A program made the translations under genes and the position numbers. This document shows positions 34,169 through 39,406 of a stretch of DNA of 64,000 bases, piece by piece (position 1 is the first letter of the stretch; each line of letters begins with the position of its first letter). Source of the DNA: Nitrospira sp. MA-1 (GTDB lineage Bacteria > Nitrospirota > Nitrospiria > Nitrospirales > UBA8639); the NCBI GenBank assembly GCA_032139905.1, contig JAQJDB010000005.1, forward strand, positions 417,001 through 481,000, written 5' to 3'. The notes under the pieces are model-generated. The model saw only the letters and a program-made list of their open reading frames with translations, did not search any database and was not told the DNA's origin.

Positions 34169-34657
34169 GTGAGATATATGCTGCCATTTACTATTATCCT
34201 ATTGATATTAATCATGATTTTGGTCGCGGCGTATTTGCCGAAATTTCGTCGCGTCCTAGGGGTGATCCTGATGGTTCTGTTTGGAGCCATCGCGTTCATT
34301 ATTTGGCAGGATACCCAGGAGCGGGAATTGGAGTTTCAGCGGATTCCTATTAGCCAGGTCCAACTTTCTCACATGGACGTTCGACCCGGACTGAACTCCC
34401 GATCGTTTGTGCTGACTGGGAGGCTTGAAAATGCAGCTCAAATCTTTACCATCATTTCCGTGACTATCCAAGCTACGATTGAGGATTGCCATGCGACGGA
34501 ATGTGAAATTGTTGGGCAAGAAACCGCAGAGATCTCGTTGGAAATCCCTCCGAAACAGGCGAGAGATTTTTCTTTAACCATTCCTTTTTCCGCGATCCCA
34601 AAAATTATTGGTGAAGCTACGTGGCGATACGCTATTTTGAAGGTAAGAGCCAGATAG
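34169..34657 (+). CDS. Hypothetical membrane-anchored protein
   Basis: The 162-residue protein has two N-terminal membrane segments (PFTIILLILIMILVAAYL and GVILMVLFGAIAFIIW) and then a beta-rich periplasmic domain of about 105 residues (SFVLTGRLENAAQIF, then SVTIQATIEDCHATECEIV with two cysteines). That layout resembles FxLYD-like domains that carry a 'xxGxVxN' strand. I cannot assign a function. It is divergent from cysQ. Confidence 0.7.
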   Translation: MRYMLPFTIILLILIMILVAAYLPKFRRVLGVILMVLFGAIAFIIWQDTQERELEFQRIPISQVQLSHMDVRPGLNSRSFVLTGRLENAAQIFTIISVTIQATIEDCHATECEIVGQETAEISLEIPPKQARDFSLTIPFSAIPKIIGEATWRYAILKVRAR

Positions 34658-34798
34658 GCCATGTTCTCTTTTTTGCCTGCCGGGGGTTTTCATTCCCTTT
34701 TTCTCAATCTTAGGTCTTTACTTCTTCAAACAAATAACAAATTGACAGTCATGAAGCTCTTTACTGTGAAAAATTGCCTATTGCATCTGTTATCGACA

Positions 34799-34837
34799 AT
34801 TGTCAAATTGACAATTTTTAATGCGCCTTCTTATACT
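34799..34837 (+). promoter_or_regulatory. Sigma70-type promoter overlapped by inverted repeat
   Basis: TTGACA (34808-34813) and TATACT (34832-34837) are separated by 18 bases, a near-consensus housekeeping promoter. The -35 box is one arm of ATTGTCAA-A-TTGACAAT (34799-34815). Other half-sites are TTGACAgt near 34742 and ATTGTCAA near 34995. A repressor or activator binding this repeat is likely. The 5' leader to the first gene is about 180 bases. Confidence 0.65.
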
Positions 34838-35022
34838 AGGCTAGGTTATTAAGGAATATTCTTAATTATAGGGCAAAAGACTCATAGGTATATTCTCAAA
34901 AAGTCAAATATTTTTGACCGGTGGGTCTTTTTTGATCTTGAGATTTGCTTATTGTCTTCTTACAGTAAGGAGATGCAACGGGTAGTATTGTCAATTTTTT
35001 TTAATGGAGACATGAGGGTACG

Positions 35023-35643
35023 ATGACAACTTCTTATAGGGTTATGCCAGGACCCGAACATTTTTTGCCACCGTCGGCGGCTTCTATGGGGATTCGACTC
35101 CCCGACCCAGGTCAGGGACATATTCATGGTAGCATAGTTTCTGAAGAAGAAGCCTTGGAGGAAGCAGCCAGACAGTTTCTTTCGGCCAAAGTTCCTACAA
35201 TTTTCCCTGGACCATTGGTCCTATGGGCTTGGAATGACAAGGCTGCCAAGAAAGCCAAAGCAATTCGCCATTTGTATGAAACCATTAAGGAATGTGTGGA
35301 TTCTTCCTGTCAGCAGGCTATGCTTATTCCCATGCCGGATTATAGACCGAAGTATCCTAAAATTAATCCTGAAATTGAAATTAACCCGAACCATCCAAAT
35401 TTGACCATCTGGCATAATAAAATTGATGCCTGTATGTTTGTGGGCGTCCATTGCCATCAGGCCAATCTTTCTCTCAAGATCATTCGTGGTGGCACGAACT
35501 GTTATACTATTGCTATGTGTGCGCAAGCAGGCCATGAAGATGCCATGTTGTCCGTTCGTGACGCGACAGCTGATAAAATAATTAGATTGGCAGATTGGGT
35601 AAAGAAGTTGAAGGGGTCGGTTCCTCCTCCTGTGAAGCATTAG
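35023..35643 (+). CDS. 2-oxoacid:ferredoxin oxidoreductase, epsilon subunit (CdhB-like)
   Basis: The 206-residue protein heads the five-gene operon. It has PTIFPGPLVLWAWNDKAAKK, PDYRPKYPKINPEIEINP and HNKIDACMFVGVHCHQANLS, then GTNCYTIAMCAQAGHEDAML. This matches the extra subunit (PorE/ForE type) in Hydrogenobacter and Nitrospira enzymes, which resembles the CO-dehydrogenase beta/epsilon subunit. The conserved HCH and Cys residues may bind metal. It is not found in the common two- or four-subunit enzymes. Whether the complex acts on pyruvate or 2-oxoglutarate cannot be told from sequence alone. Confidence 0.8.
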   Translation: MTTSYRVMPGPEHFLPPSAASMGIRLPDPGQGHIHGSIVSEEEALEEAARQFLSAKVPTIFPGPLVLWAWNDKAAKKAKAIRHLYETIKECVDSSCQQAMLIPMPDYRPKYPKINPEIEINPNHPNLTIWHNKIDACMFVGVHCHQANLSLKIIRGGTNCYTIAMCAQAGHEDAMLSVRDATADKIIRLADWVKKLKGSVPPPVKH

Positions 35644-35785: not shown

Positions 35786-36997
35786 ATGGCCGCTCAAGCT
35801 TCTTTTATAGGACAAAAAAACAAAAAAGAGCAGGTGTATACCGATCCCTGGCACATGATGAATGAGGCGGCAAGGACGCCATCGTTCTTTACCGGGAGCG
35901 AAGTCATTAAAGAGGCCGTACGTCGAGCCTCCTGTGACATAATGGTCGCGTATCCCATTACACCTCAAAGTGAAGCTGCTGCTTTGTGCGGGGAACTCTT
36001 TGCCGAAGGTTATATTGGTGATTACTTCCGAGGGGAGAGTGAATTTGCCGTCATGTCCCAATGTGCGGGAGCAGCTTTTGGTGGTGCCAGAGTATTTACC
36101 ACCACCGCTGGACCAGGCACGATGCGGGCTATGGAAAATTTCCCCATGTGGGCTGGAGCGCGATTGCCTATTCAAATGATTGTAACCTGTCGTGGCATCA
36201 ACTCTCCGCTCTCGATCCAGCCGGATACTTTGGAAATTTCTTATCTGATGCAGACGGGTATGCTGGTGTGGCATGCAGAAACTGCACAAGATTTTTATGA
36301 TTGGATACTCAAGGGGTACATGGTATCGGAAGAACCTGATGTCCATTTGCCACTGGCCTTATGCTGCGATGGATTTTTTGTGACCCATACGAAGGATATG
36401 GTTGATCTGACCCCCGTGGATATGTGCCTGCCACCGTACGATCCTTATCGGTCACCTGTTCCATGTATGGACATGGAATGCCCTCCTGTTCGCATGATGA
36501 GAGATCCATTTGTGATGAAAAGCAATTATATCAGTTACGCCACCCATGCGAGTTGGCAGCAAGAGGTTTGGGCGGCTGTTGAGCGGTCCAGGAAGCATAC
36601 TATCCGTTGGATGGATGGACTGATTGATACCGAAAATACTGATGCGGATATCATTGTCGTGGCCTCGGGAACGGCAGTCTCGCAAAGCCGGGAAGCCATT
36701 GCGATATTGGAAGAGGAAGGGATTAAGGTTGGTTTGGTGAAGGTCAAAACTCTACGCCCATGGCCAGGAGAGGAGATCAGGGAGGCTACAAAACATGCGA
36801 ACCACATTATTGTTCCTGAATTTAATGTCACTGGATGGTTGGCCCGTGAAGTGAGTGCAACCATTCCAAATAATAATCGGGTTCATGCGGGTCCCCATGT
36901 ATGCGGTGGGATGACGATGCCGCCTGAAATAATCGCTGCTGAAATCAAAACGGTGTTAGGCGTTAAGGCACCTTCCTTGGCTGGGCGTGGGGGTTGA
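35786..36997 (+). CDS. 2-oxoacid:ferredoxin oxidoreductase, alpha subunit
   Basis: The 403-residue subunit has AGGAGG upstream of ATG 35786. Domain I (pyrimidine side of TPP and CoA region) shows ASCDIMVAYPITPQSEAA, GESEFAVMSQCAGAAFGGAR and FTTTAGPGTMRAMENF. Domain II shows DIIVVASGTAVSQSREAI and VGLVKVKTLRPWPGEEI. The complex carboxylates acetyl-CoA or succinyl-CoA with reduced ferredoxin in the reductive TCA cycle, or runs in reverse. Confidence 0.93.
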   Translation: MAAQASFIGQKNKKEQVYTDPWHMMNEAARTPSFFTGSEVIKEAVRRASCDIMVAYPITPQSEAAALCGELFAEGYIGDYFRGESEFAVMSQCAGAAFGGARVFTTTAGPGTMRAMENFPMWAGARLPIQMIVTCRGINSPLSIQPDTLEISYLMQTGMLVWHAETAQDFYDWILKGYMVSEEPDVHLPLALCCDGFFVTHTKDMVDLTPVDMCLPPYDPYRSPVPCMDMECPPVRMMRDPFVMKSNYISYATHASWQQEVWAAVERSRKHTIRWMDGLIDTENTDADIIVVASGTAVSQSREAIAILEEEGIKVGLVKVKTLRPWPGEEIREATKHANHIIVPEFNVTGWLAREVSATIPNNNRVHAGPHVCGGMTMPPEIIAAEIKTVLGVKAPSLAGRGG

Positions 36998-37061: not shown

Positions 37062-37976
37062 ATGAGTAAAGAAAGAATAAAAATCGCAGAGGAGTTATTC
37101 GATATCATGCCCGCTGAGTATCAGGATTTAGTTAAGCGGGCGACGTATGGGAATGAGCAACGGGGATGGAAGGATATCGGTAATGCAAAAGAGCTCATTG
37201 AAGAGCATTCCCTTTGCGCTGGATGTCCAGAGTCCATGGCATTTCGCTATATCCTTGCCTCTTTGCCGAATCCAGAGGATACAGTGATGGTGGGTTCGAC
37301 GGGATGTACCAGCTTGGTATTCCCACATGTGGCGGTCCACAATATCCATTCATTGTTCGGCAATCAAAATGCCGTTGCATCTGGGTTGAAACGGGCGTTG
37401 ACGGTTCGGTTTCCTGATCGCCACAAAGACGTAGTAGTGCTGGCAGGAGACGGGGCTACGGTGGATATTGGTTTAGACATGACCTTGCAGGCCTGGTTCC
37501 GTCAGGAGAAATTTACTACCATTTGTTTTGATAACGAGTTGTATGCCAATACCGGTGGTCAAGAGAGTGGGCTTATGCAAAAGGGTTTTGTTGCCAAGAT
37601 GGCCCCTGTAGGTAAGACTTTTGAAAAAGTTCGTCTTCCCGAAATTGCCAGGGAATCCGGTTGCCATTATGTGGTGAATTGTACGGTCAGCAAACCAAAT
37701 CTCATTGAAAAAGTAATTAAAAATGCTGTGCATATTGCGCGTGAAATTGGGCCAACTTACCTCCAGTTGTATACGCCATGTATCTTGGAAATTGGGAAAA
37801 ACAGTATGGAAGGTTTGCAGGAAATGCGTGATTCCGAAAAGCCAACAGAACGGTTTGCATATAAAGAATATGTTAGTGAACCGGCAAAGGAATTATTGGC
37901 CGAATTGGCAGCGAAGGAAAAGGAACGAAAGGCTGAAGCGAAAAGGCAGCTTGCTTCCCAAACAGTAACAGTGTAA
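37062..37976 (+). CDS. 2-oxoacid:ferredoxin oxidoreductase, beta subunit (TPP-binding)
   Basis: The 304-residue subunit binds the diphosphate of TPP through GDGATVDIGLDMTLQA...NELYANTGGQ. An N-terminal HSLCAGCPESMAFRY provides cysteines of the cluster region, and GSTGCTSLVFP follows. A Lys/Ala-rich C-terminal helix (AELAAKEKERKAEAKRQL) is typical of the five-subunit type. It is 64 bases after the alpha gene. Confidence 0.93.
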   Translation: MSKERIKIAEELFDIMPAEYQDLVKRATYGNEQRGWKDIGNAKELIEEHSLCAGCPESMAFRYILASLPNPEDTVMVGSTGCTSLVFPHVAVHNIHSLFGNQNAVASGLKRALTVRFPDRHKDVVVLAGDGATVDIGLDMTLQAWFRQEKFTTICFDNELYANTGGQESGLMQKGFVAKMAPVGKTFEKVRLPEIARESGCHYVVNCTVSKPNLIEKVIKNAVHIAREIGPTYLQLYTPCILEIGKNSMEGLQEMRDSEKPTERFAYKEYVSEPAKELLAELAAKEKERKAEAKRQLASQTVTV

Positions 37977-38005: not shown

Positions 38006-38710
38006 ATGATTATACGTCGAATCAATATCCGAATGTCAGGCCTGGGAGGGCAGGGTGCCGTGACAGCTGCCCATGTCATGGCCATGGCTGCATCTAAGGA
38101 TGGTAAGTTTGCTATATCAAACCCATTCTTTGGAGCAGAAAAACGCATGGCGCCAGCCGAGAGTTATTGTCGAATAGGGTTGAGAAAGATTTACGACCGT
38201 GGCGAACTCGTGTTTCCTGATGTGATTCAAGTATTTCATCCTCAAGTCATTACGATGGGGAAGAGTTATACGATGCCATTTTATTCAGGGATCAAAGAGG
38301 GTGGGCTTGTGATCATTAATACCGACATGCCCCTTTTGTCTGACGAAGATGTGAAGCGACTCAAAGATCTCAATGTGTCGGTCTTTAACATACCAGGGAC
38401 GAATATTGCCCTGGAAGTTGCAGGGACTGAATTGGCGACAAACATGACCATGATTGGTTCGGTAGCAGGAATTACGAAGTGTGTATCCATGAATGGCTTG
38501 GATTTGGCCTTACAAGAACGGTTTGGTAAAAAGTTTGTGGCATCTGGCGGTACGGCAACGCTGGACGAAGCCATTAAGAAGAAGTTTGCGAAGAAAGAAA
38601 TGTTGTTAAAAAAGAATCTCGATACGGTGGCTAGATCTTATGAAATCGCTGCGGAATGGGCGGAGAAAAATAAGGTTGAATTAATGGTTGGAGAAGCCGC
38701 TGCTGCGTAA
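38006..38710 (+). CDS. 2-oxoacid:ferredoxin oxidoreductase, gamma subunit
   Basis: The 234-residue subunit shows the gamma-domain signature NIRMSGLGGQGAVTAAHVMA, a Pro-containing surface region (AEKRMAPAESYCRIG), FPDVIQVFHPQVI and GTELATNMTMIGSVAGI. A C-terminal helical extension (MLLKKNLDTVARSYEIAAEW) follows. It lies 29 bases after the beta gene and probably binds CoA with the alpha subunit. Confidence 0.92.
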   Translation: MIIRRINIRMSGLGGQGAVTAAHVMAMAASKDGKFAISNPFFGAEKRMAPAESYCRIGLRKIYDRGELVFPDVIQVFHPQVITMGKSYTMPFYSGIKEGGLVIINTDMPLLSDEDVKRLKDLNVSVFNIPGTNIALEVAGTELATNMTMIGSVAGITKCVSMNGLDLALQERFGKKFVASGGTATLDEAIKKKFAKKEMLLKKNLDTVARSYEIAAEWAEKNKVELMVGEAAAA

Positions 38711-38745: not shown

Positions 38746-39024
38746 ATGTATAATGTTGCCTTAGTGACGGAAGAAAAGTGTGTGGCGAAAAAAGGCTGTC
38801 GGCTCTGCATCATGTATTGCCCGGAAGCTAATTGTTTGGATCTCAATTCAGACAAAATGATAGCCGAAGTGCATATTGACAGGTGCAAGGGTTGTGAGCT
38901 GTGTAAAGTCGTGTGTGACGCCGCTAAACATGAAGCCATTGAGATGGTCGCTGTAAATTCAGATGGAACCTTAATGGAAAAGGCTGGAGAAGCCGCGGAG
39001 TTGGGTCAAGCCTATCAGGGGTAA
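38746..39024 (+). CDS. 2-oxoacid:ferredoxin oxidoreductase, delta (2[4Fe-4S]) subunit
   Basis: The 92-residue ferredoxin-like subunit has two cluster motifs. The second is canonical, CKGCELCKVVC (Cx2Cx2Cx3C). The first reads KCVAKKGCRLCIMYCPEAN, i.e. Cx5Cx2Cx3C-P, with the first spacing widened. It passes electrons between the TPP site and ferredoxin. It is the last gene before a strong terminator. Confidence 0.92.
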   Translation: MYNVALVTEEKCVAKKGCRLCIMYCPEANCLDLNSDKMIAEVHIDRCKGCELCKVVCDAAKHEAIEMVAVNSDGTLMEKAGEAAELGQAYQG

Positions 39025-39142: not shown

Positions 39143-39406
39143 ATGAGTATCGATTTGAATGATCATATGCAGAAGTTGACCGAAGAGATGGAAAATTTTC
39201 ATCATGCCTTAGAAAGCAAAGCACGAGAGATCGAAATCAATGGGGGAGACCAGGAAATTGTTGGCAAACTTATAAAAGGCACTGATGCCATGAAAGATAG
39301 TGCCAATATCTATTTATCCTGGGCACGACACTACGTGAAGTTATCTGATGGAGGTGCGTCAGAGGCAGATGAGGGGGAAGAGGATTCTGCGGATTTTCAG
39401 TTCTAA
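39143..39406 (+). CDS. Small acidic hypothetical protein
   Basis: The 87-residue protein starts at ATG 39143, nine bases after GAGGT. It is helical (HMQKLTEEMENFHHALESKA and later MKDSANIYLSWARHYVKL) with an acidic tail (EADEGEEDSADFQF). No family recognised. It stands alone between the operon terminator and tRNA-Asn. Confidence 0.65.
   Translation: MSIDLNDHMQKLTEEMENFHHALESKAREIEINGGDQEIVGKLIKGTDAMKDSANIYLSWARHYVKLSDGGASEADEGEEDSADFQF

Follow-up and report, generated by a model that had tools for sequence, protein, structure and literature searches.

A conserved site beside a second promoter suggests shared control of rTCA-cycle genes in Nitrospirales

A conserved site, TRGGYCTTYT, stands at a fixed place before promoter-like sequences that precede a shared set of rTCA-cycle genes in Nitrospirales: those for two paralogous 2-oxoacid:ferredoxin oxidoreductases (OFOR1 and OFOR2), ATP-citrate lyase, isocitrate dehydrogenase and a 4Fe-4S ferredoxin. 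Such sharing points to a single dedicated regulator that would turn the whole pathway up or down together, and we consider it fairly probable that these genes form a single regulon, with an activator at a second OFOR1 promoter, P2, that consists of a NarL-type response regulator served by a kinase. Nitrospira are the most widespread nitrite oxidisers (PMC6606698, PMC8115632). They fix CO2 via the rTCA cycle, the control of which becomes testable with a shared operator, as one protein acting at five promoters. We recognised no rTCA regulon or operator for Nitrospira among the PMC papers searched, judged by titles, the beginnings of abstracts and some passages; the regulon prediction for Nitrospira in PMC8510549 concerns the CRP/FNR-type NnrR, and the main text of that paper contains neither "rTCA" nor "citrate lyase".

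The window, that is, the whole stretch of 64,000 nucleotides that was analysed, holds the five-subunit OFOR1 operon together with its promoter region (Table 1). Three peptides given for the alpha subunit of the pyruvate:ferredoxin oxidoreductase of N. marina in PMC8115632 resemble the OFOR1 alpha subunit, one exactly and two nearly, and OFOR1 therefore probably corresponds to that enzyme. Homologues of its first gene were found in 58 of 59 relatives. Just upstream of the promoter region lies a gene for a 162-residue protein with an apparently hydrophobic N-terminus (34169-34657), and directly 3' of the operon one for an 87-residue protein with an acidic end (39143-39406); neither protein has a match in Pfam or NCBIfam.

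Table 1. Features of the OFOR1 operon and its promoter region, in window positions.
Feature	Position	Strand	Remark
Half-site TTGACAGT	34742..34749	+	present in some own-genus members only
Inverted repeat ATTGTCAA-A-TTGACAAT	34799..34815	.	flagged earlier; unconserved, perfect in 3/48 orthologous upstreams
Promoter P1, TTGACA-N18-TATACT, near-consensus, OFOR1 operon	34808..34837	+	at most 2 mismatches in 46/48 orthologues
Conserved 82-nt element, model R1, in the OFOR1 leader	34867..34948	+	also upstream of the OFOR2 operon
Distal inverted half-site, AAGACTCA on the + strand	34877..34884	-	37 bp from the proximal half-site
Promoter-proximal half-site TGGGTCTTTT, consensus TRGGYCTTYT	34922..34931	+	6 bp before the P2 -35
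Promoter-like P2, TTGAGA-N17-TACAGT	34938..34966	+	coupled to the half-site
Half-site ATTGTCAAT	34987..34995	-	present in some own-genus members only
OFOR1 first gene, CO dehydrogenase/ACS epsilon-like subunit	35023..35643	+	PF02552
OFOR1 alpha subunit	35786..36997	+	POR_N, PFOR_II
OFOR1 beta subunit	37062..37976	+	TPP-binding
OFOR1 gamma subunit	38006..38710	+	POR
OFOR1 delta-like 4Fe-4S subunit	38746..39024	+	

The initial annotation had described a near-consensus promoter whose -35 forms one arm of a TTGTCAA-type inverted repeat, flanked on both sides by related half-sites, and had read this as direct control of a central carbon-fixation enzyme by a dedicated regulator. As a description of the letters this is accurate: the right arm of the repeat holds the TTGACA of P1 (34808-34813), and both flanking half-sites are present, so that half-sites of the ATTGTCAA type do cluster around the OFOR1 promoter region. 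The single half-site ATTGACAAT shows no window-wide enrichment (30 matches against 25.5 expected), and the 17-mer repeat at up to three mismatches occurs once in the window, where 0.54 occurrences are expected; in the 4.76 Mb genome it has a single perfect copy, and the runner-up has two mismatches. For the comparison with orthologues 50 OFOR1 upstreams were fetched, from which a truncated one (G011) and the second copy of G029 were removed, and the OFOR1 counts take in only the remaining 48; G041 and G047 were looked at separately. The repeat is perfect in 3 of these 48 and recognisable at up to one mismatch in 5, all of them from the window's own genus. Its left arm shows no conservation among the 48, and the right arm owes its persistence to serving as the -35 box of P1. 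The flagged repeat is a local oddity. That a regulator binds TTGTCAAT inverted repeats which bury the -35 of P1 is, in our judgement, highly improbable: the repeat is perfect, genome-unique and spans that -35, but it is not conserved in orthologous upstreams, the very outcome that the initial annotation had named as refuting, and every other copy in the genome has at least two mismatches. The proposal of a dedicated regulator for this enzyme is supported, though not by way of that repeat; the conserved site is another one, at 34877-34966.

This site, about 100 bases downstream of the repeat, overlaps an 82-nt element that most orthologues have past P1 and that contains complementary blocks: GACTCA...TGGGTC in the window, GGCTCA...TGGGCC or GCCTCA...TGGGGC in other orthologues. 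P2 has a weak -35 (TTGMNN), followed after 16-18 bp by an exact TANNNT in 43 of 45 OFOR1 matches, against roughly 3% by chance, and in 25 of 26 OFOR2 matches. A covariance model of the element, R1, served as a finder and detected it at E<=1 in 55 of 59 relatives, 46 of which have at least two matches; at E<=0.1 it matched 59 of 198 phylum-sampled genomes, 56 of them from the same order and the rest being G181, G205 and G069. In the window's own genome the second match precedes the paralogous OFOR2 operon; across genomes, 26 second elements of this kind were examined. Weak matches precede a ferredoxin gene (G030, G023, G057), nuoABC (G014, G181) and an ATP-citrate-lyase-like gene (G205); they consist of the same blocks at very different spacings, with the right block, TRGGYCTTYT, again 6 bp before a TTG -35, except in G057, where it is about one turn further away. 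The remaining weak matches are extra OFOR2 copies, OFOR1 leaders of family f4, or chance-like (G069).

Some genomes carry further copies of the OFOR epsilon gene besides those of OFOR1 and OFOR2 (G055:C6, G056:C202, G057:C1, G019:C31). Since G055 and G056 have only two R1 matches each and the third match of G057 precedes ferredoxin, the extra copies of these three genomes appear to stand outside the regulon. G019 has divergent epsilon copies only and no R1 match, yet sites are present before its ATP-citrate lyase and ferredoxin genes.

When site and promoter are written together as TRGGYCTTYT-N6-TTG-N20-TANNNT, the 4.76 Mb genome contains four matches at 0-1 mismatch, and all four precede rTCA genes, namely OFOR1, OFOR2, ATP-citrate lyase (PF16114, Citrate_bind) and the monomeric isocitrate dehydrogenase (PF03971). 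In five simulations that kept the genome's size and the window's dinucleotide make-up, 0, 1, 2, 0 and 2 such matches arose, and it is therefore the location of the four, not their number, that carries weight. With up to two mismatches allowed there are 22 matches, no better than a reversed control with 49, for which reason only the 0-1-mismatch class was used, together with one two-mismatch match before a 4Fe-4S ferredoxin gene (NF033683).

The arrangement recurs across genomes. TRGGYCTTYT-N6-TTG at 0-1 mismatch was found in 45 of 48 OFOR1 upstreams, in 45 of 50 ATP-citrate lyase upstreams (six of these matches, in G036, G037, G046, G051, G056 and G057, are mismatched inside the TTG and hence weaker), in 29 of 48 ferredoxin upstreams (one of them, at -305 in G052, probably by chance) and in 26 of 26 OFOR2 upstreams, a figure conditional on an R1 match in those 26 genomes. 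Of 20 stretches fetched beside ATP-citrate lyase, 12 contained the isocitrate dehydrogenase gene, each time with the site at 0-2 mismatches. The five ATP-citrate lyase upstreams without a match at up to one mismatch are those of G014, G058, G043, G038 and G044. The ferredoxin count excludes upstreams shorter than 150 bp (G003, G007) and includes two genomes with two copies each, one of which matches at N17 (G043, G046). Among the 19 remaining ferredoxin upstreams, seven, each from family f3, have the site free of mismatches at N16-17, which places it roughly one helical turn more distant from the -35, as do the ferredoxin promoters of G057 and G058; 12 of the 48 have no match at up to one mismatch at either spacing. 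In Ca. Nitrospira defluvii (G053, FP929003.1) the OFOR1, OFOR2, ATP-citrate lyase and ferredoxin promoters are all mismatch-free, that of ferredoxin at N17. A strict pattern of two half-sites, AAAGRNYYA-N4-34-TRGGYCTTYT, matched in 32 of 59 genomes, with similar numbers for the reversed controls in many of them; it pointed to further ferredoxin sites.

In 142 of 151 promoters the 60 bp upstream hold a partner half-site (up to one mismatch), compared with 31% (905/2900) of shuffled stretches, the orthologues among the promoters not being independent. Its arrangement is specific to the promoter class: mostly inverted with a gap of 37-39 bp at OFOR1, direct at 21-23 bp together with inverted at 37-39 at OFOR2, direct at 21-25 at ATP-citrate lyase, and inverted at 5-6 or 15 at ferredoxin. 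The inverted gaps of 5-6, 15 and 37-39 would be spaced about whole helical turns apart. We infer that the element functions as a binding site, and its position beside the -35 points to activation rather than repression.

We propose that the OFOR1 operon has tandem promoters, of which the near-consensus P1 would supply basal expression, while P2 further downstream would be served by a dedicated operator composed of TRGGYCTTYT exactly 6 bp before the -35 and an upstream partner half-site, inverted or direct. As the same module precedes five rTCA-cycle gene sets, these would form one regulon in Nitrospirales. A histidine kinase with a Rossmann domain, encoded just upstream of a NarL-type response regulator, would phosphorylate that regulator, which would then bind the half-sites beside the -35, recruit RNA polymerase to P2 and raise OFOR1 jointly with OFOR2, ATP-citrate lyase, isocitrate dehydrogenase and ferredoxin.

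The location of the OFOR1 element between P1 and the start codon also invites the idea of a structured leader RNA, a riboswitch or attenuator transcribed from P1 and folding through AAAGRCYYA and TRGGYCTT. In alignment A1 (40 rows, used for the pairing tests and for R1) the stem pairs in 96.3% of cells, although this count is favoured by the omission of G038 and G044, which have no recognisable element; G004, G006, G016, G018, G022 and G049 are likewise not included. One pair varies between A-U, G-C and C-G; double-change cells number 15, where shuffles have 6.5, and none of 500 shuffles attained the covariation score of 0.227. Changes on both sides are nevertheless confined to 2 of 8 pairs, a number that 405 of 500 shuffles reach; the folding of five sequences is ordinary (z-scores of -0.2 to -1.8); and a search of 34650-35100 found no Rfam family, and thus no known regulatory RNA, above the gathering score. 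Moreover, the half-sites recur elsewhere at other spacings, direct before ATP-citrate lyase and inverted with a gap of 5-6 bp before ferredoxin, at a fixed distance to a -35. Direct repeats and a constant 6 bp speak for a DNA-binding activator and not for an RNA hairpin; the leader RNA, which we regard as very unlikely, was therefore set aside, and R1 was retained merely as a finder.

A protein bound at the same place could also act as a repressor or roadblock that stops transcription from P1, with P2 derepressed or irrelevant. The OFOR1 operator does lie downstream of P1, between P1 and the gene, and in G041 and G047 of family f4 the element stands only a few tens of base pairs before the start codon and leaves scant room for a P2. 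Against this, the distance from the half-site to a weak -35 is fixed across unrelated promoters, and the ferredoxin variant is shifted by about one helical turn, as would be expected of an activator that touches RNA polymerase. We therefore think repression unlikely, if less so than a leader RNA, and continue with activation at P2.

Which protein would bind? TRGGY is the core of GerE-type sites, and proteins with a GerE domain were therefore sought as candidates, in four small genomes that carry the element (G203, G207, G029, G150). G207 encodes one PF00196 protein, and G203 one intact protein and a second with an internal stop. The proteins of G207 and G203 are orthologues, with 80-88% identity to each other and to one protein each in G029 and G150. 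They identify as the most likely candidate a conserved NarL-type response regulator, G000:C7:883034-883690, in which a receiver domain (PF00072) and a GerE-type HTH (PF00196) both score above the cut-off. Orthologues with at least 71% identity were found in 54 of 56 genomes of the order that were searched, and in G205 at 77% (80 chosen genomes in all). Elsewhere in the class six members have relatives at 57-68%, and two, G175 and G225, have none at E<=1e-45; outside the class (15 genomes) identity is at most 48%. Two genomes of the order, G005 (88% complete) and G028 (a single contig, 78% complete), lack an orthologue at this level, yet both carry the site. Such a distribution would be similar for any vertically inherited regulator, even one with another role. 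The recognition motif of the candidate is EKTVKN, whose K, K and N we take to be Lys179, Lys182 and Asn183 of DosR. An alignment with DosR/DevR 3c3w shows the motif to be identical, and those three DosR residues make base contacts (PMC4082495). No correctly oriented site lies upstream of the kinase and regulator genes, which speaks against autoregulation of this locus through the site. Family f4, a genus with small genomes (G038, G041, G044, G047), keeps the regulator and its recognition helix, yet in G038 and G044, which retain P1 of OFOR1, no site was found before OFOR1 and no match at up to three mismatches before ATP-citrate lyase or ferredoxin. Their relatives G041 and G047 have an operator-like element near the OFOR1 start codon.

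It is less likely, though a serious alternative, that the operator and the regulon are as described and that another protein binds, either a regulator of a different family or a stand-alone GerE-type HTH protein of 91 residues. The latter has the GerE domain PF00196; in the window's own genome its gene (L049:12963-13235) stands between those for OFOR2 and isocitrate dehydrogenase, and in four genomes of family f1 (G020, G023, G026, G035) it is no more than 10 kb away from the OFOR2 element. Its helix reads KTVEAHR, however, unlike KTVKN; there is no match at E<=1e-8 in G181; and the streamlined, element-bearing G203 and G207 have no close orthologue (best E 2.3e-9 and 8.0e-9), these genomes being 99% and 98% complete, yet in 40 and 30 contigs. 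Its case is weakened by this absence from G203 and G207. This GerE/LuxR-type protein, encoded at G000:C5:392962-393234 on the minus strand, does have counterparts of 67-79% identity in most of the f3 genomes that were sampled.

For the NarL-type candidate a putative cognate kinase is at hand, since a histidine kinase frame adjoins the regulator immediately upstream in 20 of 20 loci fetched. In G000 it contains HisKA_3 and HATPase_c domains; no membrane segment is obvious by eye, and Pfam matches nothing in roughly the first 92 residues. This N-terminal part keeps a GxGxxG motif, the three glycines of which are invariant in the 17 sequences of alignment A2. A model of the full-length kinase was poor (pLDDT 65.8). 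Modelled by itself, the N-terminal part (pLDDT 85.7) takes on a dehydrogenase-like Rossmann fold with GxGxxG that resembles NAD-dependent dehydrogenases: the best VIA-align hit is 4lrs_B (Z 12.6, rmsd 2.7, 108 residues aligned), and the best Foldseek E is 3.9e-05. The model leads us to the hypothesis that the kinase senses NAD(H), although a shared fold by itself shows no function; the earlier guess of a redox-sensing regulator is compatible with such a domain and is not proved by it. A scan of GTDB genomes gave 303 kinase relatives among the pattern matches; 80 of these were kept, all with Nitrospira- or Nitrospirota-type names bar one Nitrospinota and one Nitrosospira label. Our search of the PMC literature found no paper on a Rossmann-domain NADH-sensing kinase.

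Several known systems invite comparison. By sequence, the best solved-structure match of the candidate is 5hev, a member of the VraR/LiaR group; known VraR/LiaR regulators have a cell-envelope function, and their helix reads KTVKTHV where the candidate has KTVKNHV. Another likeness is to DosR/DevR of Mycobacterium, which works with the kinases DosS and DosT, is a NarL-type two-domain response regulator like the candidate and shares its EKTVKN. The half-site of DosR is GGGACTT, to which TGGGACTTTTG of the ATP-citrate lyase promoter bears a resemblance in sequence. DevR binds a tight group of sites, of which the proximal one overlaps the -35 (PMC3029386), and here too several sites are closely packed and the proximal one stands beside the -35. 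The two systems differ in that here the orientation of the half-sites varies, the proximal one stands 6 bp before the -35 and the proposed targets are rTCA genes. They differ also in their sensors, since DosS is a haem sensor, whereas the paired kinase here is modelled with a dehydrogenase-like Rossmann domain. CbbR, the LysR-type master regulator of the Calvin cycle, differs from the system proposed here in protein family, operator and pathway. It offers a parallel in that one regulator governs genes of CO2 fixation (PMC8510549).

Taking these strands together, we speculate that the rTCA cycle of Nitrospirota is one regulon in which a cytosolic Rossmann kinase reads NAD(H) and a DosR-like regulator sets the expression of both OFORs, ATP-citrate lyase, isocitrate dehydrogenase, ferredoxin and, in some lineages, complex I. 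This broader picture is tentative; if true, CO2 fixation would be matched to the reducing power that reverse electron flow from nitrite provides. For N. moscoviensis, PMC6606698 describes high expression of key rTCA genes and discusses a 2M-type complex I as a source of reduced ferredoxin. Operator-like elements lie before nuoABC, the genes of complex I, in two genomes (L141, G014:C277:3106-3160; L135, G181:C71:27132-27194), suggesting that in some lineages the regulon extends to complex I; they may also fit a role of complex I as a source of reduced ferredoxin. Operator-like sites are also found beside genes for small CxxC zinc-ribbon-like proteins in two genomes that belong to different families, G205 (L134, G205:C23:71109-71164) and G039 (L147, G039:C30:3603-3635).
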